NCBI RefSeq assembly: GCF_000284335.1
Contig: NC_017096.1
Span: 682,001 to 746,000 of the forward strand
Length of the DNA stretch: 64,000 bases
Direction: 5' to 3'
DNA from: Caldisericum exile AZM16c01
GTDB taxonomy: Bacteria > Caldisericota > Caldisericia > Caldisericales > Caldisericaceae
The translations under genes were made by a program, and so were the position numbers. The notes below the pieces were generated by a model, which had not been told where the DNA came from, ran no database searches, and was given only the letters and a program-made list of their open reading frames with translations. Within the stretch, counting starts at the first letter, position 1; each line of letters opens with the position of its first letter. Below, in pieces: positions 3,788-18,329 of this stretch.

Positions 3788-4833
3788 ATCTTAAACTGAA
3801 GACTTTCTTTTGAGTTTGTTGCAAGTTGACCGCAAGCGGCGGAAACATCCGTTCCTTTTGAAAGCCTCAAAGTTGTTCGTAACCCATTTGATAAAAGGAA
3901 TTTTTGAAACTCAATTTCTTTTTTTGAAGGCTTGAAGGAAATAGAAGGGATTTCGTTATAGTGAATGAGATTTACTTTAACAAATTTTAGATCCCTTGAA
4001 AATTTTAAGAGTGCTTCTGCATCAGACTTTGTGTCATTTACATTATCTATTAGAAGATATTCCAAGGTTACAGTATTTCCGGTCCTTTCGTTATAGTAAA
4101 TTAGCGCTTCCTTTAATTTATTCAGGGGATAATTTTTAAGTCCGGGCATTAGAGAATCTCTTTTTCTTTGAATCGCTGCATGTAATGATATTGCAAGTTT
4201 TACTGATGGAATTTCGTCTGCAAGTTTATAAATCATTGGTGTGATACCTGAAGTTGAAATTGTTATTCGTCTTTTTCCCAGTTCTCTTCCGTTTTCATCG
4301 GTTAAAATTTCGATTGCCTTTTTTACGTTCTCGTAATTGAGGAGTGGCTCTCCCATTCCCATAAAAACGATATTTGAAACCGGACTTATTTTCTCAAGCT
4401 GTAAAAACTGCTCAACAATTTCTCCTGCTTCAAGATTCCTGATAAGTCCCATTTTTCCTGTTGCGCAGAATTGACAAGCCATAGAACAGCCAACTTGTGT
4501 TGATAAACATGCAGTAAACCATGTGCGACCAATGTTATTCGTATTTTTAATTAAAACGCTTTCTATGAGTCTTTTGTCACTTAACTCGAAAACAAACTTT
4601 GTTGCATCATCTTTCGAAGTTTTCCTTGATACTTCTTTGAACGTCGTAATATAAAAAATATTATCAAGAGTTTTACGAAGTTCCTTGCTTAGTGTTGTGA
4701 TCTCTGAAAAATTTTCTCTTTTTTCCTTATAGATTGCATTAAATACCTCTTTTGCTCTATATTTTTTTTCATTTAAAGATGAAAAGAATCCCTCCAGTTC
4801 TTTGAGTGTTAAGTTTTTTATATCTTTTTTCAT
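3784..4833 (-). CDS. rlmN: RlmN, dual-specificity 23S rRNA A2503 / tRNA A37 C2-methyltransferase
   Basis: RlmN is a radical-SAM enzyme that methylates C2 of adenosine in 23S rRNA and some tRNAs. The 349-residue protein has the cluster motif CSMACQFC (Cys116, 120, 123), the upstream conserved Cys109 in ACLSTQVGC, and the methyl-carrying C-terminal Cys334 in SAACGQLA. It also has GMGEPLLN and an SLHA motif. Both catalytic cysteines are present, so the full mechanism is expected. The start codon coincides with the predicted transcription start and has no convincing SD, so the mRNA is probably leaderless. It converges on the yggS-like gene. Confidence 0.96.
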   Translation of the reverse strand: MKKDIKNLTLKELEGFFSSLNEKKYRAKEVFNAIYKEKRENFSEITTLSKELRKTLDNIFYITTFKEVSRKTSKDDATKFVFELSDKRLIESVLIKNTNNIGRTWFTACLSTQVGCSMACQFCATGKMGLIRNLEAGEIVEQFLQLEKISPVSNIVFMGMGEPLLNYENVKKAIEILTDENGRELGKRRITISTSGITPMIYKLADEIPSVKLAISLHAAIQRKRDSLMPGLKNYPLNKLKEALIYYNERTGNTVTLEYLLIDNVNDTKSDAEALLKFSRDLKFVKVNLIHYNEIPSISFKPSKKEIEFQKFLLSNGLRTTLRLSKGTDVSAACGQLATNSKESLQFKI

Positions 4834-4839
4834 GTTTCC

Positions 4840-4867
4840 ATTTTAATCTCTATTTAAAAATTTGCAA
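4840..4867 (-). promoter_or_regulatory. Promoter of rlmN, predicted to give a leaderless mRNA
   Basis: On the minus strand TTGCAA (4862-4867), a 16-base spacer and TAAAAT (4840-4845) form a good sigma-A promoter. Seven bases beyond the -10 is the A of the rlmN ATG (4833), so transcription would begin at or next to the start codon. Confidence 0.6.
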
Positions 4868-4970
4868 TAATATTTTGCATATTTTGGAAAATTTAATAAA
4901 AGTTATTATGTTAGTTACTTTTTTAACTTTGATAATAGGCATAAATTTTAGAAAAATGTTTTTCTCCCTC

Positions 4971-4999
4971 TTGACAAAGAAAATTGTTTTTGTTAAAAT
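4971..4999 (+). promoter_or_regulatory. Strong promoter of the nucleobase catabolic operon
   Basis: A perfect -35 TTGACA (4971-4976), a 17-base spacer and TAAAAT (4994-4999) form the best consensus promoter in the window. The predicted start near 5006 leaves a 38-base leader with a strong SD (AAGGGAGGT, 5029-5037) before the ATG at 5044. A near-consensus promoter implies high expression unless repressed; no obvious operator was seen. Confidence 0.78.
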
Positions 5000-5043
5000 T
5001 TAATATCTTTTTTAAAAATCTTTGAATAAAGGGAGGTAGTGAG

Positions 5044-5769
5044 ATGAAAAAAGAGGTACCAGAGAAGGTATCGCAGAATGAGGTAATTTTTAAGGTAGAA
5101 GAGATTGAGCCACTGTTAAGTGGTCCTGCAATGGATCTTCCACGTTGGGAGCCGATGTATATCACCCTTCCTAATGGAAGAACAATGGTTATTAGAGAAA
5201 TGAGGAAGGATGAAGCACCGCTTCTTTTCCCTCTTTTGAAGAAATTGATCGACACAGATCACGATTTCTACGACATCGTTGGTGTAAGAGTTTATGCTGA
5301 ACTACTTGGATGGCTTAGAAATAGATTAAAAGATCCTTATCAAATGGTCGGTATTGTCGATGGAAAGCTTGCAGCGTTTTGTAATGGAAGATTAATGAAC
5401 AGGGATATCAACATAAGTTTACATACAATGGCTTTCATGCGTGGAATGAAGGCTGGTGCTGTAATGTACTATGCGAAGGCCTATTATACCTTTGAAATTC
5501 TTGGACAAAGAGAGTTTTGGGCAACTTATGAAAGTTACAACGGATGGAAGAGATGGGGCGTTGGAATGGCCCAGCCATCTTACCCTTGGCCAGATGTACA
5601 GCATGAATTAGGTGGAGCAAGGGTTTACTACATTACAAAAGAATATTGGCAAACAACAGTAAAAAGGTATCTTGAAGATATGATTGGTGCAAAATTGCAG
5701 GCACCAGTTCCCGAAGATCTTTTAAAAGCAGCTGAAAAATTTGAAGTTCCAGAAACCTTAGAGGAATAA
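5044..5769 (+). CDS. GNAT-like protein of unknown substrate, first gene of the nucleobase catabolic operon
   Basis: I do not recognise a characterised homologue. The 241-residue soluble protein looks like a GNAT acyltransferase fold. A beta strand plus helix (TMVIREMRKDEAPLLFPLL, about 59-77) is followed by strands around MVGIVDGKLAAFCNGR. A helix follows, then WATYESYNGWKRWGVGM (about 159-175), which resembles the late GNAT segment with its conserved Asn. No classical acetyl-CoA P-loop (Q/RxxGxG/A) is clear, so activity is uncertain. It has no signal peptide or membrane segment. It is separated from the DUF2877 gene by a strong stem-loop. Position immediately behind the promoter suggests a role in the same pathway, possibly modifying an intermediate or sensing acyl-CoA. 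Confidence 0.5.
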   Translation: MKKEVPEKVSQNEVIFKVEEIEPLLSGPAMDLPRWEPMYITLPNGRTMVIREMRKDEAPLLFPLLKKLIDTDHDFYDIVGVRVYAELLGWLRNRLKDPYQMVGIVDGKLAAFCNGRLMNRDINISLHTMAFMRGMKAGAVMYYAKAYYTFEILGQREFWATYESYNGWKRWGVGMAQPSYPWPDVQHELGGARVYYITKEYWQTTVKRYLEDMIGAKLQAPVPEDLLKAAEKFEVPETLEE

Positions 5770-5784
5770 AGGGAATATTGTGGC

Positions 5785-5808
5785 TCCCCCAAGAGGATTC
5801 TTGGGGGA
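5785..5808 (+). other. Intercistronic stem-loop, 9-bp perfect stem
   Basis: TCCCCCAAG (5785-5793) pairs perfectly with CTTGGGGGA (5800-5808) around the loop AGGATT. It starts 16 bases after the stop of the GNAT-like gene. It is not followed by a continuous T-run, so it is not a textbook terminator. It could be a partial terminator or a 3'-end stabiliser that makes the first gene more abundant than the rest of the operon. Confidence 0.7.
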
Positions 5809-5836
5809 AAATATTACTTTTTACAAAAAGGTAGGA

Positions 5837-6652
5837 ATGAAGGTAATCTCAGTGGGCGACAAAATAGATTTAGAATTTAAGATTTTAGGTATCCATTCCT
5901 CATTTGCGCATGCTATCAATCTTTATACTGATAGTGGATTGGTTTTTTTGGTTTCAGAAGATATCGGTGCTGGTCCTAATTCAGTTGTTGTTCAAAGCGA
6001 CACAATTGAAGAGATTTTTATTAACGAATTGAAGGAAGCACTATTGCATCATAGCCCCGTTATATATGATTCAACTTTTTCATTACCGCATAAAGATATT
6101 GATTTTATACTGAAAAACATCGTTAAAGTCAAAAACATTTTAAAACAATATTCTCAGCCTTTAAGTTCAGCTTTTCTTATCGATCCGTCAAGAAAGATTT
6201 ATTTTAAGGGATCATTTAATTTGAATTTAGTAGATAAATTAGAGAATTATTTCAACCGTTTAATAAACTTTGATTTTAGTTCGATTCATATTCTAAAAGG
6301 GTTAGGCTATGGTTTTACACCGCAAGGAGATGACCTAATCGAGGGATTTTTGTCTGCGATGTATTTGTATGAAAGGTTGTTTGAAATAGATCTTTCTGAA
6401 ATTCGCAACACTATATTTATTCTTGCACAAACGCAGAATGAGGTTTCTAACACCTTTCTTTATTTCACATCACTCGGATTTTTCTATGAGAGATTCAAAA
6501 ATGTTCTATTATCTCTTTTTACTGGGCAAAATTTAGAGCAGAGTGTTTTGAAGATGTTATCCTTTGGCGAAACCTCTGGTGCGGATATTCTCACAGGTTT
6601 TGTTAAAGGGTTTGAAAAACTTTTAGAAGGAGGCAAAAAATTATGGCAGTAA
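5837..6652 (+). CDS. DUF2877 protein, AllH-like subunit of an oxamate-carbamoyltransferase-type complex
   Basis: DUF2877 proteins (E. coli YlbF/AllH) act with FdrA (AllF) and YlbE (AllG), a set linked to carbamoyl transfer from oxalurate in allantoin breakdown. The hallmark motifs are present: GLGYGFTPQGDDLIEGFL near residue 155 and GETSGADILTGF near the C-terminus. A GTG at 5780 would extend the frame by 19 residues, but that codon sits directly before the 9-bp stem-loop. I prefer ATG 5837 (MKVISVGDKI), which has an AGGT-type ribosome site and gives 271 residues. The 3' end overlaps fdrA by 10 bp. The true substrate in this organism is inference. Confidence 0.82.
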   Translation: MKVISVGDKIDLEFKILGIHSSFAHAINLYTDSGLVFLVSEDIGAGPNSVVVQSDTIEEIFINELKEALLHHSPVIYDSTFSLPHKDIDFILKNIVKVKNILKQYSQPLSSAFLIDPSRKIYFKGSFNLNLVDKLENYFNRLINFDFSSIHILKGLGYGFTPQGDDLIEGFLSAMYLYERLFEIDLSEIRNTIFILAQTQNEVSNTFLYFTSLGFFYERFKNVLLSLFTGQNLEQSVLKMLSFGETSGADILTGFVKGFEKLLEGGKKLWQ

Positions 6653-8196
6653 AAGGCATGTTGAAAAAAGGCGAATACTATGATTCAGTAACATTGATGC
6701 TTGTTCAAAAAGACGCTTTAAATATCCCTGGAGTTGAAGATGCCGCCATTGTGATGGGAACGTTACAAAATAAATCAATTCTTGAGAATTCAGGAATGTT
6801 ACTTGAAGAATTTAAAAGCGCAACCGATTCTGACCTTTTGATAGTCATTAAGGGCAAAGATGAAGAAACTGTAAATAAGGCACTCTCTGAAGTGGAAAAA
6901 ATACTTAAGAAAAGTAGATCGAAGTCTGAAGAGACTCAGGATTATGTGCCAAGGAGTTTGGATGGTGCTTTAAAGGTAATGGGAGATGCGAATTTAGTGC
7001 TTATATCTGTTGCAGGCAAATACGCTGGAGATGAGGCAATTAAGGCACTTTCAAAAGACTTGCATGTAATGATATTTTCCGACAATGTGCCAAAAGAAAA
7101 AGCACTTCTTGCAAAGAAAATTGGTTACGAAAAAGGTCTTCTCGTTATGGGACCAGACTGTGGAACCGCAATTATAAATGGTGCACCTCTTGGATTTGCA
7201 AACGTAGTTGAGAGAGGCGATATAGGGATTGTATCTGCAGCGGGAACTGGTCTTCAGGAAGTTTCTTCAATCATTTCAAATGTTGGTGGAGGCATATCCC
7301 AAGCAATCGGAACAGGCGGAATAGACATGAAGGAATATTATGGTGGATTGTCGTTCCTTACCGGTCTTAAAGCCTTAATTGAAGATATAGATACAAAGGT
7401 AATTGTTCTTATCTCAAAACCGCCACATGAAAGTGTCCTCCAGAAACTCAAAGAAGTTCTAAAGAATAACAAGAAACCTGTTGTTGGATGTTTTCTTGGT
7501 GCACCAAATGAATTAGTTGAAAATCTTGGTGCGTATCCTGTCTCAACTCTTGAAGAAGCGGCACTTCTTGCAGTAAGCCTTTCAAAAGGAACTTCCTTTG
7601 ACTCTTTCAAGAAGGAAATTGAAGAAAGAGAAGAGGTAATTAAGAAAGAAGCACATGAACTTGCAAAACAACTCAAACATGGTCAGAAGTATTTTAGAGG
7701 GCTTTTTCAGGGCGGAACACTGGCTTATGAAACGGAACTAATACTAACCGATATGATAGGAGAGGTGTATTCTAATGTTCCACTTAGACCTGAATTTAAA
7801 CTTAAGGATTCTTGGAAGAGCGAAAAACACACAATCGTTGACCTTGGAGAAGATGAGTTTACGGTAGGCAGACCTCACCCCCAAATTGATTTCCAGCTGA
7901 GAAATAAAAGAATTCTTGAAGAAGCAAAGGATAAAGAGGTAGCTGTGATTTATCTTGATGTGGTAATTGGTTATGGAACTAATATGCATCCCATTGAAGA
8001 CCTCGTGCCTGTGATTGAGGAAGTTAAGAAGACAAGTGATGCAATTGTAATTGTTAATGTTACCGGGACAGATAAGGATCCTCAGAACAAAAGAGCACTT
8101 ATTACTGCATTAAAAAATGCGTCTGCACATGTCTATGAAAGAAATGCCTATGCATCTAAAGTAGCAGGTTACGTAATAAAGGAAATTGGAGGTTAA
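6643..8196 (+). CDS. fdrA: FdrA-family protein, AllF-like subunit (acyl-CoA synthetase-like fold)
   Basis: FdrA is related to succinyl-CoA synthetase alpha subunits but is assigned, with its YlbE and YlbF partners, to carbamoyl transfer in ureide catabolism. The 517-residue product has the CoA-ligase-like nucleotide-binding core with GPDCGTAIINGAPLGFANVV (about 167-186), SAAGTGLQEVSS and GTGGIDMKEYYGG, then a second Rossmann-like domain with PHPQID and DVVIGYGTNMHP. The start is ATG 6643 with SD AGAAGGAGG, overlapping the DUF2877 stop. The DUF1116 gene begins two bases after its stop, so equal subunit production by coupled translation is likely. Confidence 0.9.
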   Translation: MAVKGMLKKGEYYDSVTLMLVQKDALNIPGVEDAAIVMGTLQNKSILENSGMLLEEFKSATDSDLLIVIKGKDEETVNKALSEVEKILKKSRSKSEETQDYVPRSLDGALKVMGDANLVLISVAGKYAGDEAIKALSKDLHVMIFSDNVPKEKALLAKKIGYEKGLLVMGPDCGTAIINGAPLGFANVVERGDIGIVSAAGTGLQEVSSIISNVGGGISQAIGTGGIDMKEYYGGLSFLTGLKALIEDIDTKVIVLISKPPHESVLQKLKEVLKNNKKPVVGCFLGAPNELVENLGAYPVSTLEEAALLAVSLSKGTSFDSFKKEIEEREEVIKKEAHELAKQLKHGQKYFRGLFQGGTLAYETELILTDMIGEVYSNVPLRPEFKLKDSWKSEKHTIVDLGEDEFTVGRPHPQIDFQLRNKRILEEAKDKEVAVIYLDVVIGYGTNMHPIEDLVPVIEEVKKTSDAIVIVNVTGTDKDPQNKRALITALKNASAHVYERNAYASKVAGYVIKEIGG

Positions 8197-8198
8197 TT

Positions 8199-9626
8199 AT
8201 GAGCAAGGTGAACGAACTATTTAAAAGTGAACTTAAGGTTATAAATATTGGACTAACTGCATTTGCTGACAGCCTAAGAGCAACGGGCTATAAAGTTGTC
8301 CACGTTGACTGGTCTCCACCAGCTTTTGGTGAGGATGTAAGAGAGGCACTCGACAAATTTAACGAAATAGTAATATCTAAAAAAGTGGATATAGAAAAAG
8401 CAAATGAAGAGGCTTTTAAAAGGCTTGTTTCTGCAAGACCAAAACTTGTAAGGATGGGCAAGGCTCTTGATCTTATACCTGGCATGAAGAGTAATATGTT
8501 ATTACATGCTGGTCCCCCTGTTACATGGGATAGAATGTGCGGTCCAATGAAAGGAGCAGTCCTTGGTGCGATTTTATACGAAGGATGGGCAGAAAACCTT
8601 GAAGACGCTGAAAAGCTTGCTCAATCTGGAAAAATTGAATTTTCACCATGTCATCATCATCAGGCTGTTGGTCCAATGGCGGGTGTTGTTTCCCCCTCAA
8701 TGCCGGTTTTTGAAATTGTTAATGAGACCTACGGCAATAAAGCCTATACAAACATGAATGAAGGACTTGGAAAAGTTCTTAGAATGGGCGCTTATTCAAA
8801 AGAAGTAATTGAAAGATTAAAGTGGATGGAATCGGTCCTATATCCAACCTTATCAAGGGCAATCGAGTACCTTGGCGGAATTGACCTTAAAAATATTCTT
8901 GCCCAAGCCCTTCATATGGGTGACGAAGGACATAATAGAAACAGGGCAGCAACGTCTATTTTATTTAGGCAACTTGCACCTGCAATTGTGAAAACAACGT
9001 CCGATACAGATGTTGTAGAACGTGTTCTTAAATTCATTGACGGAAATGATCATTTCTTCCTCAATTTATCTATGGCAACAGCGAAGGCAAGTCTTGACGC
9101 TGCAAGGAATATTGAAGGTTCCACAATGGTTGTCGTAATGGCAAGGAATGGAACAGATTTTGGTATTCAGGTTTCTGGCTTAGGGGACGAATGGTTTACT
9201 GCACCTGCAGAAGTTCCACCTAATGCACTATACTTCCCTGGATTTACCAAGGAAGATGCAAATCCAGATATTGGTGATAGTTCTATAACAGAAACAGCAG
9301 GGTGGGGTGGCTTTGCAATTGCTGCAGCACCTGCAATTGTTCAATTCACTGGCGGTACACCTCAAGAAGCAATTAACAAGACAAAGATGATGTATGAAAT
9401 AACAATTGGTGAAAACACTACATATCAAGTTCCTTATCTTAATTTTAGAGGCACACCTACGGGCATTGATGTGAAGGCCGTGGTTGAGAAAGGAATCCCT
9501 CCTTTTATTGACACGGGTATTGCTCACAAGATGCCTGGAATTGGACAGGTTGGTGCAGGACTCGTTGATGCACCAATGGAAGTATTTAAGAAGGCATTAA
9601 TTGCTTTTGTAAAAAAATATTCATAA
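8199..9626 (+). CDS. DUF1116 protein, YlbE/AllG-like subunit
   Basis: DUF1116 proteins (E. coli YlbE) are encoded next to fdrA and form the third partner of the AllF/G/H set. The 475-residue protein carries characteristic conserved blocks: HAGPPVTWDRMCGPMKGA (about 106-123), FSPCHHHQAVGPMAGVVS (about 147-164), LHMGDEGHNRNRAATS (about 239-254) and GNDHFFLNLSMATAKA. The many His, Asp and Arg residues in these blocks suggest a phosphate-binding or carbamoyl-handling active site. SD GGAGG lies 5 bases before ATG 8199. Family identification is firm; chemistry in this organism is inferred. Confidence 0.9.
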   Translation: MSKVNELFKSELKVINIGLTAFADSLRATGYKVVHVDWSPPAFGEDVREALDKFNEIVISKKVDIEKANEEAFKRLVSARPKLVRMGKALDLIPGMKSNMLLHAGPPVTWDRMCGPMKGAVLGAILYEGWAENLEDAEKLAQSGKIEFSPCHHHQAVGPMAGVVSPSMPVFEIVNETYGNKAYTNMNEGLGKVLRMGAYSKEVIERLKWMESVLYPTLSRAIEYLGGIDLKNILAQALHMGDEGHNRNRAATSILFRQLAPAIVKTTSDTDVVERVLKFIDGNDHFFLNLSMATAKASLDAARNIEGSTMVVVMARNGTDFGIQVSGLGDEWFTAPAEVPPNALYFPGFTKEDANPDIGDSSITETAGWGGFAIAAAPAIVQFTGGTPQEAINKTKMMYEITIGENTTYQVPYLNFRGTPTGIDVKAVVEKGIPPFIDTGIAHKMPGIGQVGAGLVDAPMEVFKKALIAFVKKYS

Positions 9627-9644
9627 AAAGGGAGGCAAAACATC

Positions 9645-10460
9645 ATGACAACAGAAGAATTTATTAATTTAATGACTAAAGAAATTAAAATGTACGACTT
9701 AACTCAACCGCTTAGCGTTCACACACCACCTTGGCCGAGTTATATGCCACTTGGCATTCAATATTTCAAAAGAATTGCAGGCGCAGATAGAGGTCAAGGC
9801 GCTAATGGACAGATTATTACTTCAAGCAACCATGTAGGTACTCACATGGATGGTGAGATCCATTTCTACGGAGCAGGAAGAGCAATTGGTGCTGTTCCAC
9901 TCGAAGAGTGGGTCGGTCCTGGAGTTGTTGTTGATATTTCTGATGAAGTTGGTGATTACGACCTTTATACCCCAGAGATGCTTATGAAAAAAGCAGACAT
10001 AAGACCTGGGGATATTCTCATTATAAATACTGGCTATCATAGGTATGCATGGTATGAAAAGGAAGCAGATGAAGTGCGTTACATGGTAAAGCATCCTGGG
10101 CCAAGTCCAGATTTTCCTGATTGGGCTCTGAAGATGCAATTTAAGTGGATTGGTGTAGATTGTGGCAGTGCCGACCATCCAATGAATACAATTCTTAGGA
10201 ATTGGCACCCGAAACTATTCCTTGAGGCTGAAAAGAAGTTAAAAGAAAAATATGGTAAATCTTGGGATGAGATGTTCCCACCTGAAGAGTTCTATCAAAT
10301 TATGCATCTAAAACTTTTCCCAAAGGGATTAGTTCACGCAGAGAACCTTGGTGGAGATATTGATAAACTCAGTAATAAGAGAGTTTATGTTGGAGCGTTT
10401 AACGTTAAAGGAATAGAAATGGAGTCGGCCTGGACGCGTATAGTTGCCTGGGCTCCATAA
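9645..10460 (+). CDS. Cyclase-family metal-dependent hydrolase (kynurenine formamidase-like)
   Basis: This family (PF04199) contains kynurenine formamidase, isatin hydrolase and related amide or lactam hydrolases. The metal-binding signature HVGTHMDGEIH is present (His63, His67, Asp69, His73), preceded by the family's DLTQPLSVHTPPWP opening. Length (271) is at the upper end because of an insertion around PPEEFYQIMHLKLFPKG. SD GGGAGG lies 9 bases before ATG 9645. Placed between the AllFGH-like genes and the molybdenum hydroxylase, it is the best candidate for opening an oxidised ring in the pathway. Substrate unknown. Confidence 0.85.
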   Translation: MTTEEFINLMTKEIKMYDLTQPLSVHTPPWPSYMPLGIQYFKRIAGADRGQGANGQIITSSNHVGTHMDGEIHFYGAGRAIGAVPLEEWVGPGVVVDISDEVGDYDLYTPEMLMKKADIRPGDILIINTGYHRYAWYEKEADEVRYMVKHPGPSPDFPDWALKMQFKWIGVDCGSADHPMNTILRNWHPKLFLEAEKKLKEKYGKSWDEMFPPEEFYQIMHLKLFPKGLVHAENLGGDIDKLSNKRVYVGAFNVKGIEMESAWTRIVAWAP

Positions 10461-10473
10461 AGGGGAGGTTTTT

Positions 10474-11355
10474 ATGAAGACCTTTGAGTACTTTAAACCA
10501 TCGACAGTAGACGAAACTCTTCAATTGCTAAAACAATTTGGCGACAAAGCAAAATTGCTTGCAGGCGGAACAGATGTTGCAGTAATGGTTGATGACGGAA
10601 TGCTTGCGCCAGATTATGTTATTGATCTTAAAGGACTTGATTTCTTAAAAGGAATTGAGATTAGGGAAAACAACTATCTTTGGATTGGTGCGCTTACAAC
10701 TTTCTCTGAAATAATTCATTCAGATTTGGTGAAAAAGCACTTTCCTGTGCTTTTTGAAGCATCAAAAACTGTCGCCTCAGTTGGTGTAAGGAATCGGGCA
10801 ACTCTTGTTGGTAATATTTGTTCTGCAGTACCCTCCGCTGATTCAGCACCAACACTTCTTATACTTGACGCTCTCGTTGAGATAAAAGGAGACAGCGATA
10901 AACTTGTTCCTATTAGAGAATTTTTTACAGGTCCAAGAAAGACTGTTCTTCAAGTTTCGGAGATTGTCACGGGAATTAGAATTCCCCTTGAAGTGAGGAA
11001 ATATGGTGCAAACTATATAAAATTGGGTCGTTACGATGGTGAAGATCTTGCACAAGTTGGTGTTGCAACATTTATCTCTGAGGACCTTGAATATCGTATT
11101 GCATTTGGTGCAGTTGCTCCTACGCCAGTTAGAGCTTTTGAAGTAGAAGAGTTCCTAAAAGGTAAAGAGTTGAGTGATTCCCTTATTCAGGAGGCTATTC
11201 CAATTGCACTTAAATCTATATCTCCAATTTCAGATGTGAGGGCAAGCAAAGAATACAGAATGCATGTAAGTGGAGTTCTTTTCAAGAGGTCCTTAAAAGC
11301 ATCGTATGAAAGACTCCACGGAAGTGGTCCTGTTTATGGAACTAATTTGGTTTAG
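10474..11355 (+). CDS. Molybdenum hydroxylase FAD-binding subunit (xanthine dehydrogenase / CoxM type)
   Basis: This is the medium, FAD-binding subunit of a three-part molybdenum hydroxylase; it passes electrons from the iron-sulfur subunit to NAD or another acceptor. The 293-residue protein has the FAD-binding motifs AGGTD (30-34) and the VGNICSAVPSADS region (about 109-121), followed by a CO-dehydrogenase flavoprotein C-terminal domain. Start chosen at ATG 10474, which has the strong SD GGGGAGG; an in-frame ATG at 10444 lies inside the cyclase gene and adds non-conserved residues. The 2Fe-2S subunit follows 9 bases later. Confidence 0.92.
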   Translation: MKTFEYFKPSTVDETLQLLKQFGDKAKLLAGGTDVAVMVDDGMLAPDYVIDLKGLDFLKGIEIRENNYLWIGALTTFSEIIHSDLVKKHFPVLFEASKTVASVGVRNRATLVGNICSAVPSADSAPTLLILDALVEIKGDSDKLVPIREFFTGPRKTVLQVSEIVTGIRIPLEVRKYGANYIKLGRYDGEDLAQVGVATFISEDLEYRIAFGAVAPTPVRAFEVEEFLKGKELSDSLIQEAIPIALKSISPISDVRASKEYRMHVSGVLFKRSLKASYERLHGSGPVYGTNLV

Positions 11356-11364
11356 GAGGGTAAC

Positions 11365-11829
11365 ATGCAGAAAAAAGAGATAACCTTTATATTAAACGGC
11401 AAAAAGGTCTGGGTTGAAGTAAAACCTTATGAAAAATTACTTGATGTGTTAAGAGATAAACTTGGAGTAAAGAGTCCTAAATATGGCTGTGGAAGGGGAG
11501 AGTGTGGTGCTTGTTCCGTATTATTAGATGGTAAGGCAATCAGGTCTTGCATAGTTTATGCTATTGAGGTAGACGGGCATGAAGTTACAACAGTTGAAGG
11601 GCTCCAAGCTAATGGTCTTACACCGCTTCAGAAATCTTTTCTTGCACATAACTCATTCCAATGCGGATTTTGTGCACCAGGCATGATAATTCAAGCAACA
11701 GAACTTTTAAATGAAAACCCTCACCCAGATGAAGAAGAAATTAGAGAGTATATTGCAGGAAACCTCTGCAGATGTACAGGTTATAATCCAATAGTCGAAG
11801 CAATTTTGGATGTTGCAAAAAAGGGATAG
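11365..11829 (+). CDS. Molybdenum hydroxylase 2Fe-2S subunit
   Basis: The small subunit holds two [2Fe-2S] clusters that shuttle electrons from molybdenum to FAD. The N-terminal plant-ferredoxin-like cluster is bound by Cys42, 47, 50 and 62 (CGRGECGAC and RSC). The C-terminal helical cluster is bound by Cys100, 103, 135 and 137 (CGFC and CRCTGY). All eight ligands are present and the length (154) is normal. SD AGGAGGG precedes ATG 11365. The order FAD, Fe-S, Mo matches many bacterial xanthine dehydrogenase-like operons. Confidence 0.96.
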   Translation: MQKKEITFILNGKKVWVEVKPYEKLLDVLRDKLGVKSPKYGCGRGECGACSVLLDGKAIRSCIVYAIEVDGHEVTTVEGLQANGLTPLQKSFLAHNSFQCGFCAPGMIIQATELLNENPHPDEEEIREYIAGNLCRCTGYNPIVEAILDVAKKG

Positions 11830-11838
11830 GAGGGGCTT

Positions 11839-14181
11839 ATGAAAGAATTAGAACTTAAATATGTTGGTCATGAAGCGACGAGACTTGATGGCCTCGAAAA
11901 AATTACAGGAACTGCGAAATACGTAGACGACATTGACCTTGGACCTGCAACTCTGTATGTATCAATTTTAAGAAGCCCTTATGCGCATGCAACAATCAAG
12001 AAAATTGATACTTCTAAGGCCGAGGCCCTTGATGGTGTCTATGCAGTAGTTACGGGAAAAGATTTTCCTTATCGATACGGTCTTTATCTTAAGGATAATT
12101 ATGTTTTCCCTCTTGACAGAGTTCGATACGTTGGACAACACGTTGCGGCAGTAATCGCGGCGACCCAGGAAATTGCTGATGAAGCAGTAAAACTCATTGA
12201 AATTGAGTATGAACCACTTCCTGTTATCCAAGATCCTCTTGTTGCAATTAAAGAAGATGCACCATTAATTCATCCTGAACTTGGAAACTATGAAGTTGTC
12301 CCATGGCTTTATCCTCAACCTGGCACAAATATTGCTCATGTAAGGAAAATTCGAAAGGGAAATGTCGAGGAAGCCTTTAAAGAAGCAGATTACATATTAG
12401 AAGATTGGTATATAGTTCCGCATGTAGTACATGCCCCTATTGAAACACATGTTTCAGCTGCTCTTTATACACCGGATGGAAGATTAACAATGTGGAATTC
12501 GTCTCAATCTCCACATACTCAGCGTAACATTATCGCCCGTTCCTTTAAATTGAAACATAAGGATATAAGAGTTATTGCTCCTTATGTTGGTGGTGGATTT
12601 GGCGGAAAAGCAGGCGTGAACATGGAAGTTGTTGCTGCGGCATGTGCATTAAAGGTTCCTGGTCACCCTGTGAAAATTAGGTATACGAGAAAAGAAGAAT
12701 TCTATGATACCTCAATGCGTCAGGAACTTCATGCGTATATTAAGATGGGTGTAAAGAAGGATGGAACAATTGTGGCATTAAAGCATCAACTCTATTGGGA
12801 CGTTGGTGCTTCTGCTGAATACGGTTCAAACGTTGTTAACGCAACAGGATTTTCAGCCATTGGACCGTATAGAATTCCAAATGTGTGGATTGATTCCTTT
12901 GCGATTTATACAAATAGACCTCCTTGTGGAGCATATAGAGGCTTTGGCTACTCAGAATTTCACTTTGGACTTGAAAGCCACATGGATAGGGTTGCAAAGG
13001 CACTTGGTATAGACCCAGTTGAATTTAGAAAGAAAAATGCAATTCAAGAAGGTGATACGGTTGCTTATGGTGTTGAGATGGGTCCAACAGGAATACTTCA
13101 ATGCATTGATGAAGTTGCAAAGGCAATAGAATGGGGAAAACCATCAGAGCAGCCAAAGGAGTCTCACAAAGTTAGAGCAAAAGGGTTTGCTGCTGTTTGG
13201 AAAGCACCAGCAATGCCTGCAAACGAATCTTCTGCCGCTTTCATTAAGTTCTCCGAAGATGGAAGTATAAACGTCCTCGTATCAGGAATGGAACTTGGGC
13301 AGGGATTCTTAACTGCAATGGCGAAAATTGCAGCAGAAGAACTTTCGCTTCCTCTTGAAAAAATTAGAGTTGAACTTCCTGACACTGACAGGAACCCTTA
13401 TGAGTGGCAAACTGTTGCATCTCATGTCACTTGGTCATGTGGAAATGCAGTGAGACGTGCAGCAATCGATGCAAAAGAACAGATTCTTGATGTTATCTCA
13501 AGAGCGTACTATATCGAAAAAGCAAATCTCTATCTTGAAAATGGAAAAGTTAAATGCTACACTAAACCTGACTTCGAGGTTCCATTTGAAAGTTTTGTCA
13601 TTGATGGAGTACAAATGCCTGACGGAACATATCGAGGAGGGCCTATTCTTGGACGTGGATCATTCATGCCAGAATTTACTTCGGCAAAGGTGAATCCAGA
13701 AACCGGTCAAGGAGGACATCCCAATGTGCACTATACTACTGGTGCAGGTGCTGTGGAAATTGAAATTGATACCGAAACAGGAAGAATACGAGTTATAAGA
13801 ATGGCAGAAGCTTTCGATGCAGGTAAGGCTATAAATCCTGATATTGTAAAGCAACAAATCGAAGGTGGTTTTGTTCAAGGATTAGGAACAGCACTTTGGG
13901 AAGAGGTAAAATTCGCAGAAGATGGAAGAATTCTCAATCCTAATTTTACAGATTATAAAATCCCAACTGCACTTGATGTGCCAAGAGAGATGCACCCAAT
14001 TATCGTTGAAGTTCCTCAACCAGATGGTCCATTTGGAGCAAGAGGTATTGCGGAACATACTATGATTCCCGTAATGCCTGCTGTTGCAAATGCTGTTGAA
14101 AATGCACTTGGAATAAGGATTAAGAATCCACCTATTACTGCAGAAAAAATTATAAAGGCTCTTAATGAAAAAAACAGTTAA
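11839..14181 (+). CDS. Molybdenum hydroxylase catalytic (molybdopterin-binding) subunit
   Basis: The 780-residue large subunit binds molybdenum-cytosine-dinucleotide or molybdopterin and hydroxylates an aromatic N-heterocycle. Conserved blocks are VGGGFGGKAG, PPCGAYRGFGYSEFHF, GMELGQGFLTAMAKIAAEEL, and PFGARGIAEHT containing the likely catalytic Glu739. The AYRGFG loop is of the xanthine dehydrogenase/aldehyde oxidase kind, not the AYRCSFR loop of CO dehydrogenases, so a CO-oxidising role is unlikely. The neighbouring NCS2 permease and ureide-type genes point to a purine, but pyrimidine or nicotinate-like substrates cannot be excluded. SD AGGAGGGG precedes ATG 11839. Confidence 0.93.
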   Translation: MKELELKYVGHEATRLDGLEKITGTAKYVDDIDLGPATLYVSILRSPYAHATIKKIDTSKAEALDGVYAVVTGKDFPYRYGLYLKDNYVFPLDRVRYVGQHVAAVIAATQEIADEAVKLIEIEYEPLPVIQDPLVAIKEDAPLIHPELGNYEVVPWLYPQPGTNIAHVRKIRKGNVEEAFKEADYILEDWYIVPHVVHAPIETHVSAALYTPDGRLTMWNSSQSPHTQRNIIARSFKLKHKDIRVIAPYVGGGFGGKAGVNMEVVAAACALKVPGHPVKIRYTRKEEFYDTSMRQELHAYIKMGVKKDGTIVALKHQLYWDVGASAEYGSNVVNATGFSAIGPYRIPNVWIDSFAIYTNRPPCGAYRGFGYSEFHFGLESHMDRVAKALGIDPVEFRKKNAIQEGDTVAYGVEMGPTGILQCIDEVAKAIEWGKPSEQPKESHKVRAKGFAAVWKAPAMPANESSAAFIKFSEDGSINVLVSGMELGQGFLTAMAKIAAEELSLPLEKIRVELPDTDRNPYEWQTVASHVTWSCGNAVRRAAIDAKEQILDVISRAYYIEKANLYLENGKVKCYTKPDFEVPFESFVIDGVQMPDGTYRGGPILGRGSFMPEFTSAKVNPETGQGGHPNVHYTTGAGAVEIEIDTETGRIRVIRMAEAFDAGKAINPDIVKQQIEGGFVQGLGTALWEEVKFAEDGRILNPNFTDYKIPTALDVPREMHPIIVEVPQPDGPFGARGIAEHTMIPVMPAVANAVENALGIRIKNPPITAEKIIKALNEKNS

Positions 14182-14187
14182 TTTGTG

Positions 14188-14193
14188 TATAAT
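14188..14193 (+). promoter_or_regulatory. Possible -10 element of a separate permease promoter
   Basis: A perfect TATAAT starts 7 bases after the stop of the catalytic subunit gene. No good -35 is visible at the usual distance (TGAAAA-like at best). If used, transcription would begin near 14200, exactly at the 5' edge of the inverted repeat at 14201-14228. Confidence 0.4.
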
Positions 14194-14200
14194 GTTAAAA

Positions 14201-14228
14201 ATGTGGGTGCTATGTTAGGCACCCACAT
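14201..14228 (+). repeat. Perfect 10-bp inverted repeat / stem-loop in the permease leader
   Basis: ATGTGGGTGC (14201-14210) is perfectly complementary to GCACCCACAT (14219-14228) around an 8-base loop. There is no T-run after it; instead a strong ribosome-binding-like AGGAGGAGG (14234-14242) follows, without an open frame of useful length. The permease has its own SD (AAAGGAGGT) just before ATG 14336. Candidate roles are an operator at the transcription start, an attenuator, or a 5' stabilising hairpin. Confidence 0.65.
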
Positions 14229-14335
14229 AAGCAAGGAGGAGGTGGTAAGAGTTTAAAAAATGTTTGAAAAGTTCTTAAATCTTACAGTAAGCGAAAAGAC
14301 TGTTTATTAAAAAAAATTTAAAAAGGAGGTTTAAG

Positions 14336-15730
14336 ATGGCAGAAGAACAATTTAAAGCAACAAGAGTGGTACCATGGCCAGTGGATTCTTATCCATCGTG
14401 GGGATTCTCTTTTGTTGCAGGTTTGCAGCATGTACTTACACTTTTTGGTGCAACAACTCTTGTACCAATTCTCTTCTCACAAGCGATGGGAATGAGCCCA
14501 CAACAAACCGGAATCCTTATTGCTACAGTTTACATGGTAATGGGTATAGCAACACTTTTACAGTGTGATTCAAGAATTGGGTCAGGACTTCCAATTGTCC
14601 AAGGCTCGTCGTTCTCATTCATACCCGCTGCAACGGCAATCTTTGAGAATGTGAAAAAGGGCGGCGGTGGAATAAATGAGATGATGACAGCACTTGGAAG
14701 TGCTCTTTTCTATGGTGGTATCTATGAATTAGTTGTAGGTTATTCAGGTTTAATAGGGCTTCTTAAGAAAGTCATTACTCCTGTTGTAATTGGCCCTACA
14801 ATTATGCTTATTGGATTTAGCCTTGCGTCTGTTGCAGTCAATACTGCTTCAAGTTATTGGCCAGTTTCTATTGTAGGCGTTATCCTTATCTTTATATTTG
14901 CGCTTGTTGTAAAGAATAGTAAAATTAACTCTTTCCCAGTTTTCCTTGCAGTTGCAATTCTGTATCTTTTTGCTGTTCTTGGAACTGCGATAAAACTATT
15001 CCCTGAAGGACACCCAATGTTTATTAACTTTAAGGCAATAGCAGATGCACCTTGGATTGTTTGGCCAAAGCCATTAAGGTATGGAAATATCTTCAAATTT
15101 GACTCATTTGGATTTGCTGCAATTCTTGCTGCATATACATCCTCAATGATTGAGTCATTTGGAGATTATCACAGTGTTTCTTATGCATCAGGTCTTCCTG
15201 ATCCAACATCCCAAATGATATCAAAAGGAATTGGAGCAGAAGGACTTGGCTGTATCATTTCAGGTATCCTTGGCGGTGTTGGAACAACATCATACACAGA
15301 AAACATTGGTGTCGTTGCCCTTACGGGAATTGCTTCACGAAGAGTTATTAGGACTGGCGCTGTCATCCTTATTGTTCTTGGCTTCCTTTGGAAGCTTGGG
15401 ACAATCATTGGAACCATGCCTTCACCGATAATTGGCGCAGCATACCTCTCGCTTTTTGGTCTCATTGGTGCTCTTGGTGTTCAGGTATTTGCACGTGCAG
15501 ATGTAACATCAACAAGGAATCTTATGATTCTTGGGTTTGCATTCCTTTTTGGTCTTGGGTTGCCATCTGTCATTTCTGCACATCCTATTACAATACCTGG
15601 TGCAACGTGGCTTGCAAACATTCTCAATGGTATTTTCCACACCAGTATGGCAGTTGGTGGTGTTACGGCAGGTATTCTTGACAACATAATTCCTGGAACA
15701 GACAAAGAAAGAGGAATTGGCGTAAGGTAA
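14336..15730 (+). CDS. NCS2-family uracil/xanthine/urate permease
   Basis: NCS2 transporters take up nucleobases with protons or sodium. The 464-residue, roughly 14-helix protein begins with PSWGFSFVAGLQHVLTLFGATTLVP, whose QH pair is the first-helix signature. It carries the substrate-binding helix motif ESFGDYHSVS and the helix-10 signature GGVGTTSYTENIGVVALTG. Charged and polar residues at the binding site do not let me separate uracil from purine specificity. It follows the molybdenum hydroxylase genes and is closed by a canonical terminator, so it most likely supplies the substrate of the upstream catabolic operon. Confidence 0.92.
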   Translation: MAEEQFKATRVVPWPVDSYPSWGFSFVAGLQHVLTLFGATTLVPILFSQAMGMSPQQTGILIATVYMVMGIATLLQCDSRIGSGLPIVQGSSFSFIPAATAIFENVKKGGGGINEMMTALGSALFYGGIYELVVGYSGLIGLLKKVITPVVIGPTIMLIGFSLASVAVNTASSYWPVSIVGVILIFIFALVVKNSKINSFPVFLAVAILYLFAVLGTAIKLFPEGHPMFINFKAIADAPWIVWPKPLRYGNIFKFDSFGFAAILAAYTSSMIESFGDYHSVSYASGLPDPTSQMISKGIGAEGLGCIISGILGGVGTTSYTENIGVVALTGIASRRVIRTGAVILIVLGFLWKLGTIIGTMPSPIIGAAYLSLFGLIGALGVQVFARADVTSTRNLMILGFAFLFGLGLPSVISAHPITIPGATWLANILNGIFHTSMAVGGVTAGILDNIIPGTDKERGIGVR

Positions 15731-15760
15731 TTATTGCAAGTAAATTATCATTTAATTTTA

Positions 15761-15787
15761 AAGGGGAAGCATAAGCTTCCCCTTTTT
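15761..15787 (+). terminator. Rho-independent terminator after the permease
   Basis: A perfect 10-bp stem (AAGGGGAAGC with GCTTCCCCTT) closes a 4-base ATAA loop and runs into TTT, a GCA interruption and another T-run at 15791-15796. It ends the nucleobase island before the tRNA cluster. Confidence 0.9.
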
Positions 15788-15820
15788 GCATTTTTTAGGC
15801 TTAATAAGTGATTTTACCTC

Positions 15821-15848
15821 TTGATTTTTTTTGCAAACTCAATACAAT
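15821..15848 (+). promoter_or_regulatory. Promoter of the tRNA cluster
   Basis: TTGATT (15821-15826), a 16-base spacer and TACAAT (15843-15848) predict a start near 15855, a few bases before the first tRNA. Consensus-based call; other AT-rich hexamers in the same stretch are possible. Confidence 0.5.
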
Positions 15849-15860
15849 ATATTGCCTGAT

Positions 15861-15938
15861 CGGGGCGTGGCTCAGCTTGGGTAGAGCGTTTGGTTTGGGA
15901 CCAAAAGGTCGAAGGTTCAAATCCTTCCGCCCCGACCA
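15861..15938 (+). tRNA. tRNA-Pro (anticodon TGG)
   Basis: Acceptor CGGGGCG pairs with CGCCCCG. The anticodon loop TTTGGGA gives TGG, the T-loop is TTCAAAT, and the encoded CCA ends at 15938. First of seven closely spaced tRNA genes. Confidence 0.95.
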
Positions 15939-15944
15939 TTAGGT

Positions 15945-16021
15945 GCGCCCATAGCTCAGCAGGATAGAGCAACGGATTTCTAATCCGTCGGTCGCTGGTT
16001 CAAATCCGGCTGGGCGCGCCA
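15945..16021 (+). tRNA. tRNA-Arg (anticodon TCT)
   Basis: Acceptor GCGCCCA pairs with TGGGCGC. The anticodon stem ACGGA/TCCGT closes the loop TTTCTAA, giving TCT, which reads AGA/AGG. CCA is encoded. AGA is the dominant Arg codon by eye in the neighbouring genes. Confidence 0.95.
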
Positions 16022-16026
16022 TTTAT

Positions 16027-16104
16027 GGTGGGTGTAGCTCAACTGGTTAGAGTACCGGACTGTGGATCCGGCCGTTGGGAGTTCGAGTCTCCTCACCCAC
16101 CCCA
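16027..16104 (+). tRNA. tRNA-His (anticodon GTG)
   Basis: The anticodon stem CCGGA/TCCGG closes the loop CTGTGGA, giving GTG. The extra 5' G (16027) faces discriminator C73, the identity element for histidyl-tRNA synthetase. CCA is encoded. Confidence 0.95.
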
Positions 16105-16106
16105 AG

Positions 16107-16183
16107 GCGCCCATAGCTCAGAAGGATAGAGCGGTGGATTCCTAATCCGCAGGCCACAGGTTCGAATCCTGTTGGGCGCACCA
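16107..16183 (+). tRNA. tRNA-Arg (anticodon CCT)
   Basis: Acceptor GCGCCCA pairs with TGGGCGC. Anticodon loop TTCCTAA gives CCT (reads AGG). CCA is encoded. Only two bases separate it from tRNA-His, so processing must release both ends closely. Confidence 0.95.
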
Positions 16184-16186
16184 CGT

Positions 16187-16263
16187 GCGCCTATAGCTCA
16201 ACTGGATAGAGCAACGGACTTCGGATCCGTTGGTTGCGGGTTCGACTCCTGCTAGGCGCGCCA
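16187..16263 (+). tRNA. tRNA-Arg (anticodon TCG)
   Basis: Acceptor GCGCCTA pairs with TAGGCGC. The anticodon stem ACGGA/TCCGT closes the loop CTTCGGA, giving TCG (reads CGA/CGG). CCA is encoded. It is the third Arg acceptor in this cluster. Confidence 0.94.
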
Positions 16264-16276
16264 TTTATATATATGT

Positions 16277-16352
16277 GGGTTCTTAGCTCAACTGGTAGAG
16301 CAACGGACTCTTAATCCGTAGGTTGCGGGTTCGAGCCCCGCAGAACCCACCA
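16277..16352 (+). tRNA. tRNA-Lys (anticodon CTT)
   Basis: Acceptor GGGTTCT pairs with AGAACCC. Anticodon loop CTCTTAA gives CTT (reads AAG). CCA is encoded. The TTT isoacceptor is not in this window. Confidence 0.94.
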
Positions 16353-16375
16353 TTTTTATTTTGGACGATAAAAGT

Positions 16376-16460
16376 GCGAGGGTGGCGGAACTGGCAGACG
16401 CGCTGGACTTAGGATCCAGTGAGGAAACTCATGCGGGTTCAACTCCCGCCCTTCGCACCA
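16376..16460 (+). tRNA. tRNA-Leu (anticodon TAG)
   Basis: Class II tRNA of 85 nt with a long variable arm (TGAGGAAACTCA region). The anticodon stem CTGGA/TCCAG closes loop CTTAGGA, giving TAG (reads CUN). The acceptor GCGAGGG/CCTTCGC contains one G-U pair. CCA is encoded. No clear terminator follows, so read-through into tig is possible. Confidence 0.94.
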
Positions 16461-16519
16461 TTTTTTATTTTTAAAGTTTTCATTAAAATATGTTGGATTA
16501 TTTTAAAGAGAGGTGAAAA

Positions 16520-17740
16520 ATGGATTATACAGTAAAAGAGAGAACTCAATCAAAGATTTTAGCAGAAATTGCTCACACTAAAGACGAAATTGAGCACGCT
16601 AAAAAAGAGGCTTATTCTAATCTTTCTAAAAAAATTAAAATCCCTGGATTTAGATTAGGAAAAGCGCCTTACGAGATAGGTTCTGCGTATATTGGCTCTG
16701 AGCGTTTGCTTGAAGAAGCCTTTGAGTTGCTTCTTGATAAATCATTAGTTGAATTCTTTGAAAAAGAAAATATAGAACCTTTTACGAAGCCTTCGGTTGA
16801 TGTAAAAGAGTTTTCTCACGATAAGATTGTTTACGAAGTTACTGTAGAGTTTCTCCCGCAAATTGAATTTGACCCTGAAAAAAAGTTGGAAATAAAAAGG
16901 ACGATTGAAGTGAAAGAAAGCGAAATAGAAGAAAAACTAAAGGAACTTCAGGAAACTTTTACCGAACTTGAACCCAAAAATTCTCCTGTTGAAAATGGCG
17001 ACATAATTGAGGTTGCATATAGAATTGGGGATAAAGATGAACAGACTATCACTGTTGAAGTTGGGAAGGACAAGGTTGTTGGTAATTTTAATGAATTGGT
17101 CTTGGGAAAGAATATAGGTGAAGAGTTTGAAGTTGAAACTCAAAATACTGTTGTTAAATTTAGAGTAATTTCTATTAAAACAAAAAAGGTCCCAGAAATT
17201 AATGATGACTTTGCAAAGGAAATTGGATCGGAGTCTCTTGAAGCGCTTAGGGAAAAAATAAAGTCTGAAATTTACGAAAATAAAAAACTTCAATTGGAAG
17301 AGAATAGAGGAAGAGAAGCGTTGTATGAAGTTGCTAAAGATTTAAATGTTGAACTCCCTAAGAAATATATTGAAGGTGAAGTAGAGTCTCGTTACAAGGA
17401 GTATGAAACTGAATATCTAAAGCACGGGCTAAAACTTGAATCTTTACTTGAAAAAGAAGGAAAAACTGTTGATCAATTTAAAGAGGAAATTAAAAAAGAT
17501 GTAATTCAAGAATTAAAAGAAACGCTTATATTAAGAGAAATTATAAAGAAGAAGGGCTTAATGGCTTCTAAAGATGAAATTGAAAAAGAATTTGAAAGAA
17601 TTCTTCAAGATGAGCATATAGAAAAGGGCAGTGTTAAAATGAACGAGGAAATTGAAAGATATATAAGAAACGAAATATTGAAAAACAAGGCTATTTCAAT
17701 ATTGAAAGAAAATACTATAATAATGTTTGGAGGTGAGTAA
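16520..17740 (+). CDS. tig: Trigger factor (ribosome-associated chaperone)
   Basis: Trigger factor binds near the ribosomal exit tunnel and assists folding of nascent chains. The 406-residue protein shows the ribosome-docking signature [12 protein letters not shown] (about 41-52). A middle FKBP-like segment begins [14 protein letters not shown] (about 156-169), and the C-terminus is a long helical, charged chaperone domain. The FKBP part is poorly conserved, so isomerase activity is uncertain. It heads the classical tig-clpP-clpX-lon order. SD AGAGAGGTG precedes ATG 16520. Confidence 0.94.
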
Positions 17741-17741
17741 G

Positions 17742-18329
17742 TTGCCAATTATTCCAAGCGTTGTTGAAACAACAGGAAGAGGAGAAGTAAGTTTTGACAT
17801 TTATTCAAGACTTTTAAAAGACAGAATAATATTTTTAACTGGTGAGATTGAAACCGTACATGCTGATTTGATTGTTGCAGAACTTCTCTATCTTGAATCT
17901 CTGGACTCAACTCAGGATATATATCTATACATAAATAGCCCTGGTGGTGAGGTAATTCCCGGAATGGCTATTTATGATACAATGCAATACATTAAAGCAC
18001 CTGTTGCAACGATATGTTTAGGGCAGGCTGCATCTCTTGCTGCAGTAATTCTTGCTGCAGGAAGAAAGGGAAAGCGGTATGCACTTCCTCATTCGAGGAT
18101 TTTAATTCACCAACCTTGGGGTGGTGCACAGGGACAGGCAACTGATATTGAAATACAAGCAAAAGAACTTATAAGAATAAAAAGGATGATAAACGAAATA
18201 CTTTCAAAACACACTGGACAACCTGTTGAAAAAATACAAAGGGATACCGAAAGAGACTACTTTATGTCTCCAGAAGAGGCAAAAGAATACGGTTTAATCG
18301 ATCAAATTATCTCCATAAGGGAGCCTTAG
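17742..18329 (+). CDS. clpP: ATP-dependent Clp protease proteolytic subunit
   Basis: ClpP forms the tetradecameric serine-protease chamber fed by ClpX. The triad is intact: Ser98 in GQAASLAAV, His123 in LIHQPWGG and Asp172 in [10 protein letters not shown] place the start at TTG 17742 ([15 protein letters not shown]) because the SD GGAGGTGA ends six bases before it and the sequence then matches the family N-terminus. A TTG at 17727 would add five residues overlapping tig and the SD. The product is 195 residues with no obvious propeptide, so self-processing may be minimal. Followed seven bases later by clpX. Confidence 0.95.

Follow-up and report, generated by a model that had tools for sequence, protein, structure and literature searches.

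Which compound is degraded by an operon that joins a molybdenum (Mo) hydroxylase to the subunits of a carbamoyltransferase? The question is raised by nine genes of the heat-loving anaerobic bacterium Caldisericum exile AZM16c01, which lie at positions 5044–15730 of the 64,000-nucleotide stretch analysed here (the window; NC_017096.1, positions 682,001 to 746,000), part of a complete 1.56-Mb genome. From the DNA letters and open reading frames, the island had been predicted to import a heterocycle, oxidise it with the Mo enzyme, open the ring with a cyclase-family hydrolase and hand the product to AllFGH-like proteins for carbamoyl transfer. This scheme agrees with the conservation of the core, as a unit, across about a dozen phyla, and we consider the island to be probably a single operon for nucleobase catabolism, working through an acylurea-forming route. 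Uracil is the most probable substrate, degraded by an oxidative, energy-conserving and anaerobic route, an assignment that we hold tentatively and at close to even confidence. The island is real and conserved, is built from known enzyme families and is probably new as a pathway; we found no description of the gene cluster in the openly accessible literature.

Organisation of the operon

An open reading frame check confirmed nine co-directional genes, whose content and order, as originally described, agree with Pfam, NCBIfam and, for the first gene, a structure model (Table 1). The genes are spaced by -10, 2, 9, 9, 10, 13 and 18 bp, with 154 bp ahead of the permease gene, and a purine-rich ribosome site is clear at nearly all nine. 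Refinement of the gene starts most likely places that of AllH at GTG 5780 and that of the FAD subunit at ATG 10474. The promoter predicted upstream of the island corresponds to the top scorer among 27 promoter-like sites in 4000–18000, a count that is not above that of shuffled sequence (36 +/- 7). A riboswitch was considered and set aside because the 5' leader is just 45 nt long. A further promoter-like site, ATGAAA-17-TATAAT at 14165–14193, lies near the end of the Mo subunit gene, and the gap that follows is a possible secondary promoter or processing site, so that the permease may perhaps be expressed separately.

Table 1. Features of the island and its flanks, in window coordinates
Feature	Position	Strand	Evidence
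Promoter-like site TTGACA-17-TAAAAT, extended TG	4971..4999	+	11/12 matches; 45 bp 5' of first gene
GNAT-fold protein (241 aa)	5044..5769	+	AlphaFold and Foldseek, GNAT
AllH (DUF2877), carbamoyltransferase subunit	5780..6652	+	PF11392 64 bits (cut-off 25); 24% identity to E. coli AllH
AllF/FdrA, carbamoyltransferase subunit	6643..8196	+	NF004760 468 bits (cut-off 433); 37% identity to E. coli AllF
AllG (DUF1116), carbamoyltransferase subunit	8199..9626	+	PF06545 344 bits (cut-off 27); 47% identity to E. coli AllG
Cyclase-family metal hydrolase, proposed ring-opening (barbiturase-type)	9645..10460	+	PF04199 117 bits (cut-off 23)
FAD subunit of Mo hydroxylase	10474..11355	+	PF00941 (FAD_binding_5), PF03450 (CO_deh_flav_C)
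2x[2Fe-2S] subunit of Mo hydroxylase	11365..11829	+	PF00111 (Fer2), PF01799 (Fer2_2)
Molybdopterin catalytic subunit, proposed uracil hydroxylase	11839..14181	+	PF02738, PF20256 (MoCoBD_1/2), PF01315 (Ald_Xan_dh_C)
Gap before NCS2 gene, 154 bp	14182..14335	+	Hairpin GTGGGTGC...GCACCCAC and TATAAT-like hexamer
NCS2 (SLC23/NAT-like) nucleobase permease	14336..15730	+	PF00860 (Xan_ur_permease) 244 bits
Intrinsic terminator-like hairpin and T run	15760..15785	+	11-pair stem

Conservation of the core module

The original prediction had named a gene-neighbourhood search across genomes as a check. A search with AllG, using one genome per species, returned 486 relatives, of which the best 80 were read; in high-GC loci module membership was determined by tblastn, as longest-ORF calling picks antisense frames there. 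The FdrA-AllG-cyclase-FAD-FeS-Mo core is intact in 44 of the 51 loci with enough sequence, and the cyclase gene stands alongside AllG in 64 of 73. This order recurs across about a dozen bacterial phyla, which argues that the arrangement is more than chance: Caldisericota, Cloacimonadota, Chlorobiota/Ignavibacteriota/Bacteroidota, Marinimicrobia, Verrucomicrobiota, Kiritimatiellota, Elusimicrobiota, Eisenbacteria, Zixibacteria, Bdellovibrionota, Chloroflexota and Spirochaetota, from which not all loci are long enough to display the whole core. Distances of AllG, cyclase, Mo, FAD, FdrA and AllH correlate between loci (Mantel r 0.80–0.87), indicating that the core genes co-diverge.

Among 54 Caldisericota genomes, 25 encode AllG and 26 the cyclase, with both present in 25. 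One genus of this phylum has a split cluster: a closely related copy of the cyclase accompanies FdrA, and other contigs carry AllG together with a tandem cyclase and the Mo genes. The cyclase thus follows the carbamoyltransferase even in a divided cluster.

Carbamoyltransferase subunits and cyclase-family hydrolase

All three homologues of the oxamic transcarbamylase (OXTCase) subunits exceed their Pfam or NCBIfam cut-offs. In E. coli, AllFGH is the OXTCase and acts on the acylurea oxalurate (PMC11326118), and in nitrifiers a biuret hydrolase gene adjoins the AllFGH genes (PMC12625717). Together with a BiuH-like neighbour at one of our loci (L122, below), these associations would suit a family whose substrates are acylureas. 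Compared with the E. coli allFGHK operon, the island shares homologues of the three subunits (identities in Table 1) and adds the cyclase-family hydrolase, Mo hydroxylase, NCS2 permease and GNAT protein. The canonical E. coli companions, the carbamate kinase gene allK and allCDE, are indeed absent from the operon. The argument of the original prediction from missing enzymes nevertheless fails, since their absence is confined to the window: other parts of the genome encode a carbamate kinase and an allantoinase/HyuA-like enzyme. The subunits also divide differently: the N-terminal ~60 residues of the window AllG (8199–8390) are the counterpart of the E. coli AllF C-terminus, with AllG residues 12–44 aligning to AllF 511–543. 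This is a mobile segment, and in L123, L130 and L133 it seems to stand alone as a short piece, divided from the remaining AllG by a cyclase gene.

Relatives of these subunits also occur in other settings. L122 carries a second AllF-AllG pair (6906–11000), without cyclase or Mo hydroxylase, which adjoins a BiuH-like isochorismatase, an NCS1 permease and a nucleoside-type ABC transporter; this is probably a biuret/allophanate variant. In L134 and L137 a more distant AllG (50%) is clustered with genes for an amidohydrolase, a class III aminotransferase and other Mo hydroxylases, which probably serve the breakdown of a different heterocycle.

The metal motif of the cyclase, H63-x-x-T66-H67-x-D69-x3-H73, is at least 97% conserved among 80 homologues. 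The window protein reads H63-V-G-T-H67-M-D69-G-E-I-H73, with the Pro of HxG[T/A]HxDxPxH replaced. Its PDB matches include kynurenine formamidase and isatin hydrolase; it misses the kynurenine formamidase model TIGR03035 (53 bits, cut-off 223), and the GLQC/GLAS signature of isatin hydrolase (PMC6117287) is not present in it. Ring opening is nonetheless represented in the family, since isatin hydrolase opens isatin, a cyclic lactam (PMC6117287), and another member opens dihydrophloroglucinol, a six-membered 1,3-dione ring, in anaerobic phloroglucinol degradation (PMC10470551). Dihydrophloroglucinol is a carbocyclic counterpart of a barbiturate-type ring. The phloroglucinol pathway with its cyclase DPGC resembles the island in the cyclase-family opening of an oxygenated six-membered ring within an anaerobic cluster, and differs in its carbocyclic substrate, reductive first step and lack of carbamoyl chemistry (PMC10470551). 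In L123, L130, L133, L126 and related Caldisericota, AllG adjoins a gene for a 545-residue protein in which two cyclase domains are fused and the metal motif of the first is degenerate; an additional single-domain cyclase adjoins FdrA.

The GNAT protein and interchangeable tail genes

The first gene product has no Pfam or NCBIfam match, and a PDB sequence search with its family returned nothing. A fold search succeeded: the AlphaFold model (25 homologues, pLDDT 86) resembles GNAT acetyltransferases, with 131 PDB matches in Foldseek at E<=1e-3 (TM about 0.4–0.65), those listed being GNATs. R133, G138 and H187-E188-L189-G190-G191 are invariant in the 25 members of the family, and the modelled fold suggests that the protein is a probable CoA-dependent acyl transferase.

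GNAT proteins belong to one of three main sets of tail genes that accompany the core, namely GNAT, thiolase-like and DUF35 proteins (19 loci), a class III CoA-transferase with a GatA-like amidase (9 loci), and a nitrilase whose nearest model is the omega-amidase PRK10438 (9 loci). These sets are mutually exclusive, with zero overlap, and switch at least 12 times on the AllG tree; an isochorismatase-family hydrolase takes the place of a tail in L021 and L038. Swaps are seen even among close relatives: the slot after the Mo gene holds CoA-transferase and amidase in L012 and the GNAT set in L013 and L014, and a second swap distinguishes L063 from L073 and L075. As the tails are exclusive and exchanged for one another, they are most simply explained by an acyl amide as the product of AllFGH, which the tail enzymes would have to hydrolyse and activate. 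A class III CoA-transferase was not found in the C. exile genome.

In all 19 copies of the thiolase-like protein (L009:6022-7544 and 18 other loci), Pro replaces the nucleophilic Cys, so that it is no ordinary thiolase; the HDAF and GHPxGATG motifs are retained. Its partners are a DUF35/ChsH2-type OB protein and the GNAT protein, and the set is a candidate for amide or acyl-CoA chemistry.

Permeases and neighbouring genes suggest a pyrimidine as the probable substrate

In five module loci of other phyla (L014, L027, L035, L054 and L065), the uracil permease ranked first for the NCS2 protein, with 344, 358, 352, 227 and 414 bits, respectively, compared with 205, 221, 214, 142 and 211 bits for the xanthine permease; the L027 protein matches UraA at E 1e-73. 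In L060, methylmalonyl-CoA-decarboxylase-type subunits (mmdA-type, biotin carrier and OAD_beta) directly abut AllH on its 5' side (0 bp), AllH and FdrA are separated by a cytosine-deaminase-like gene, and in L073 mmdA adjoins FdrA on its 5' side. The decarboxylase link was counted only where the genes are contiguous and co-directional, which applies to L060 and L073; L003, L004, L135 and L136, in which they lie apart or in opposite orientation, were left out. None of the modules had a recognised oxalyl-CoA-decarboxylase gene next to it. The uracil-permease-like, cytosine-deaminase-like and decarboxylase-type neighbours thus favour a pyrimidine over xanthine or oxalurate chemistry.

A proposed pathway for uracil

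Building on what is directly observed (the genes present and their layout in the operon, their conservation, the folds and motifs assigned, the setting in the genome and the swapping of tails), we propose the following route, in which every substrate, product and reaction direction is drawn from family chemistry and gene linkage. The NCS2 permease would import the nucleobase and the Mo enzyme would hydroxylate uracil at C6 (uracil + H2O -> barbiturate + 2 e-). The cyclase-family metal hydrolase would then convert barbiturate and H2O to ureidomalonate (HOOC-CH2-CO-NH-CO-NH2). Ureidomalonate is a homologue of oxalurate, longer by one carbon, and AllFGH would cleave this N-acylurea by phosphorolysis (ureidomalonate + Pi -> malonamate + carbamoyl phosphate). 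Carbamate kinase, encoded elsewhere, would use carbamoyl phosphate and ADP to form ATP. The tail enzymes would convert malonamate to malonate or malonyl-CoA, followed by decarboxylation to acetyl units. Candidates for this part in C. exile are the GNAT protein, the single nitrilase (C1:911 kb) and an mmdA-like gene (C1:1018 kb); in other phyla, the step would fall to amidase and CoA-transferase, nitrilase, isochorismatase-type hydrolase, or the GNAT, thiolase-like and DUF35 proteins.

Several points weigh against uracil. The window permease itself scores higher with the xanthine model pbuX (230 bits) than with UraA (110 bits), both under cut-off, and matches SLC23A1 in the PDB (E 3e-65); being xanthine/SLC23-like, it leaves the substrate in C. 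exile itself at the level of a proposal. The uracil-permease, deaminase and decarboxylase links were all seen in other phyla, not in the Caldisericota window, and the UraA scores of the five permeases fall short of the equivalog cut-off (477). Neither a Toblerone-fold barbiturase nor an amidase-type ureidomalonase is among the nine island proteins (the rest of the genome was not searched for barbiturase), and the ring-opening and acylurea-cleaving steps are argued from analogy. The specificity of the Mo hydroxylase is not readable from sequence, its role as uracil hydroxylase being a proposal, and L058 and L067–L070 have FdrA-AllG-cyclase without a Mo hydroxylase in the available sequence. Finally, the uracil scheme does not explain the role of the GNAT protein, and the best-scoring model for the CoA-transferase of Cloacimonadota is CoA:oxalate CoA-transferase (379, cut-off 522), which would suit oxamate or oxalate.

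Alternative substrates

The alternative that survives best, although we consider it unlikely, is another ring that yields an N-acylurea, such as thymine, a modified pyrimidine or a hydantoin derivative, or an unrelated aromatic or aldehyde substrate of the Mo enzyme. The top PDB match of the Mo subunit is 4-hydroxybenzoyl-CoA reductase alpha, and neither the GNAT protein nor the pair of Cys-less thiolase and DUF35 protein is accounted for by uracil. However, nucleobase permeases are linked to the module in several phyla and the carbamoyltransferase family acts on acylureas.

Oxalurate chemistry is more doubtful still. Here the Mo enzyme would oxidise a five-membered imide (hydantoin or a purine-derived imidazole) to parabanate, the cyclase would form oxalurate, and AllFGH would be a true OXTCase yielding oxamate and carbamoyl phosphate, with oxamate hydrolysed and activated as oxalyl-CoA. 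The only characterised relative of the AllF, AllG and AllH proteins makes and uses oxalurate, the isatin hydrolase of the cyclase family opens a dione lactam, and the CoA-transferase resemblance described above points the same way. The neighbourhoods, by contrast, hold the uracil- and cytosine-related genes and methylmalonyl-CoA-decarboxylase-type subunits instead of an oxalyl-CoA decarboxylase, and Mo hydroxylases are not known to oxidise hydantoin to parabanate.

The purine or ureide substrate of the original prediction has fared equally poorly. The Mo enzyme would then be a xanthine/hypoxanthine dehydrogenase, with the cyclase and AllFGH degrading a purine-derived ureide. Its three subunits are broadly like xanthine dehydrogenase (XDH), and the window permease fits PbuX best, but every XDH equivalog cut-off is missed by far (Mo 525<780, FAD 232<310, FeS 171<217); for the FAD subunit the XdhB models stay below cut-off. 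In bovine XDH, E802 and R880 bind the purine. The Arg is retained in the window (GAYRGFG), whereas Ala occupies the Glu802 position in every core-module Mo subunit checked, within a module-specific motif, GGGFGGKAG; the genome's two other Mo hydroxylases, 35–36% identical to the island subunit, read GSKQE and GRKDE at this site.

A separate purine gene set, moreover, gives purines other routes in C. exile. Carbamate kinase at C1:447-450 kb (L082), about 240 kb from the island, adjoins YgeY (over its cut-off) and a YgeW/ornithine-transcarbamylase-like gene. The allantoinase/HyuA-like gene (TIGR03178 398, cut-off 358) lies at C1:879-889 kb (L146) with adenine deaminase and SsnA, both over cut-off, and ABC transport genes that were read as BmpA/Nup-like. 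PreA, a GltD-like flavoprotein, the second Mo hydroxylase and 8-oxoguanine deaminase (over cut-off) are found at C1:204-213 kb (L116), and the third Mo hydroxylase, XdhA/XdhD-like, at C1:652-655 kb (L115). These dispersed genes encode a probable reductive uric acid pathway, judging by their similarity to known members, with a PreA/UacX-like protein and without YgeX, which was not found in the genome. With uracil permeases ranking first in other phyla, a pyrimidine is more likely than a purine or ureide. A plain allantoin pathway (allCDE is not in the island), a CO dehydrogenase or aldehyde oxidase identity of the Mo enzyme (scores far under cut-offs) and the idea that the genome has no nucleobase pathway besides the island (a separate purine set is present) were rejected.

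Relation to known pathways and implications

The reductive uric acid pathway (XdhD-YgfK/UacX-SsnA-HyuA-YgeW-YgeY-YgeX; PMC12507026) is similar to the proposed route in its anaerobic nucleobase catabolism, its carbamoyl phosphate end and its Mo hydroxylase homologue. None of its ring-opening and ureido-cleaving enzymes is encoded in the island; most are found elsewhere in the genome, where SsnA, YgeY, HyuA/AllB-like, PreA/UacX-like and YgeW-like genes occur.

Pyrimidines are degraded by reductive (Pyd), oxidative (barbiturase), Rut and URC routes. The actinobacterial oxidative pathway consists of uracil/thymine dehydrogenase, barbiturase and ureidomalonase, and shares with our proposal the intermediates uracil, barbiturate, ureidomalonate and malonate. 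In contrast, the island would employ cyclase-family ring opening in place of the Toblerone-fold barbiturase, and a phosphorolytic, ATP-yielding carbamoyl transfer in place of hydrolysis to urea. With still more reserve than for the substrate itself, we suggest a further bacterial uracil pathway, anaerobic and ATP-yielding, with a cyclase-family barbiturase, AllFGH as a ureidomalonate transcarbamylase, and interchangeable tails, one of them new.

If this is true, AllFGH would gain a second substrate class and a large uncharacterised cyclase-family clade would gain a function. The GNAT, Cys-less thiolase and DUF35 proteins would represent a new conversion of an acyl amide to an activated or decarboxylated acyl unit, and become testable as a set. 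Gene annotations such as 'xanthine dehydrogenase', 'acyl-CoA synthetase FdrA' and 'cyclase' would be corrected. More broadly, the pathway would explain how mostly uncultured anaerobes of a dozen phyla may live on the nucleobases of dead cells, gaining energy via carbamoyl phosphate.

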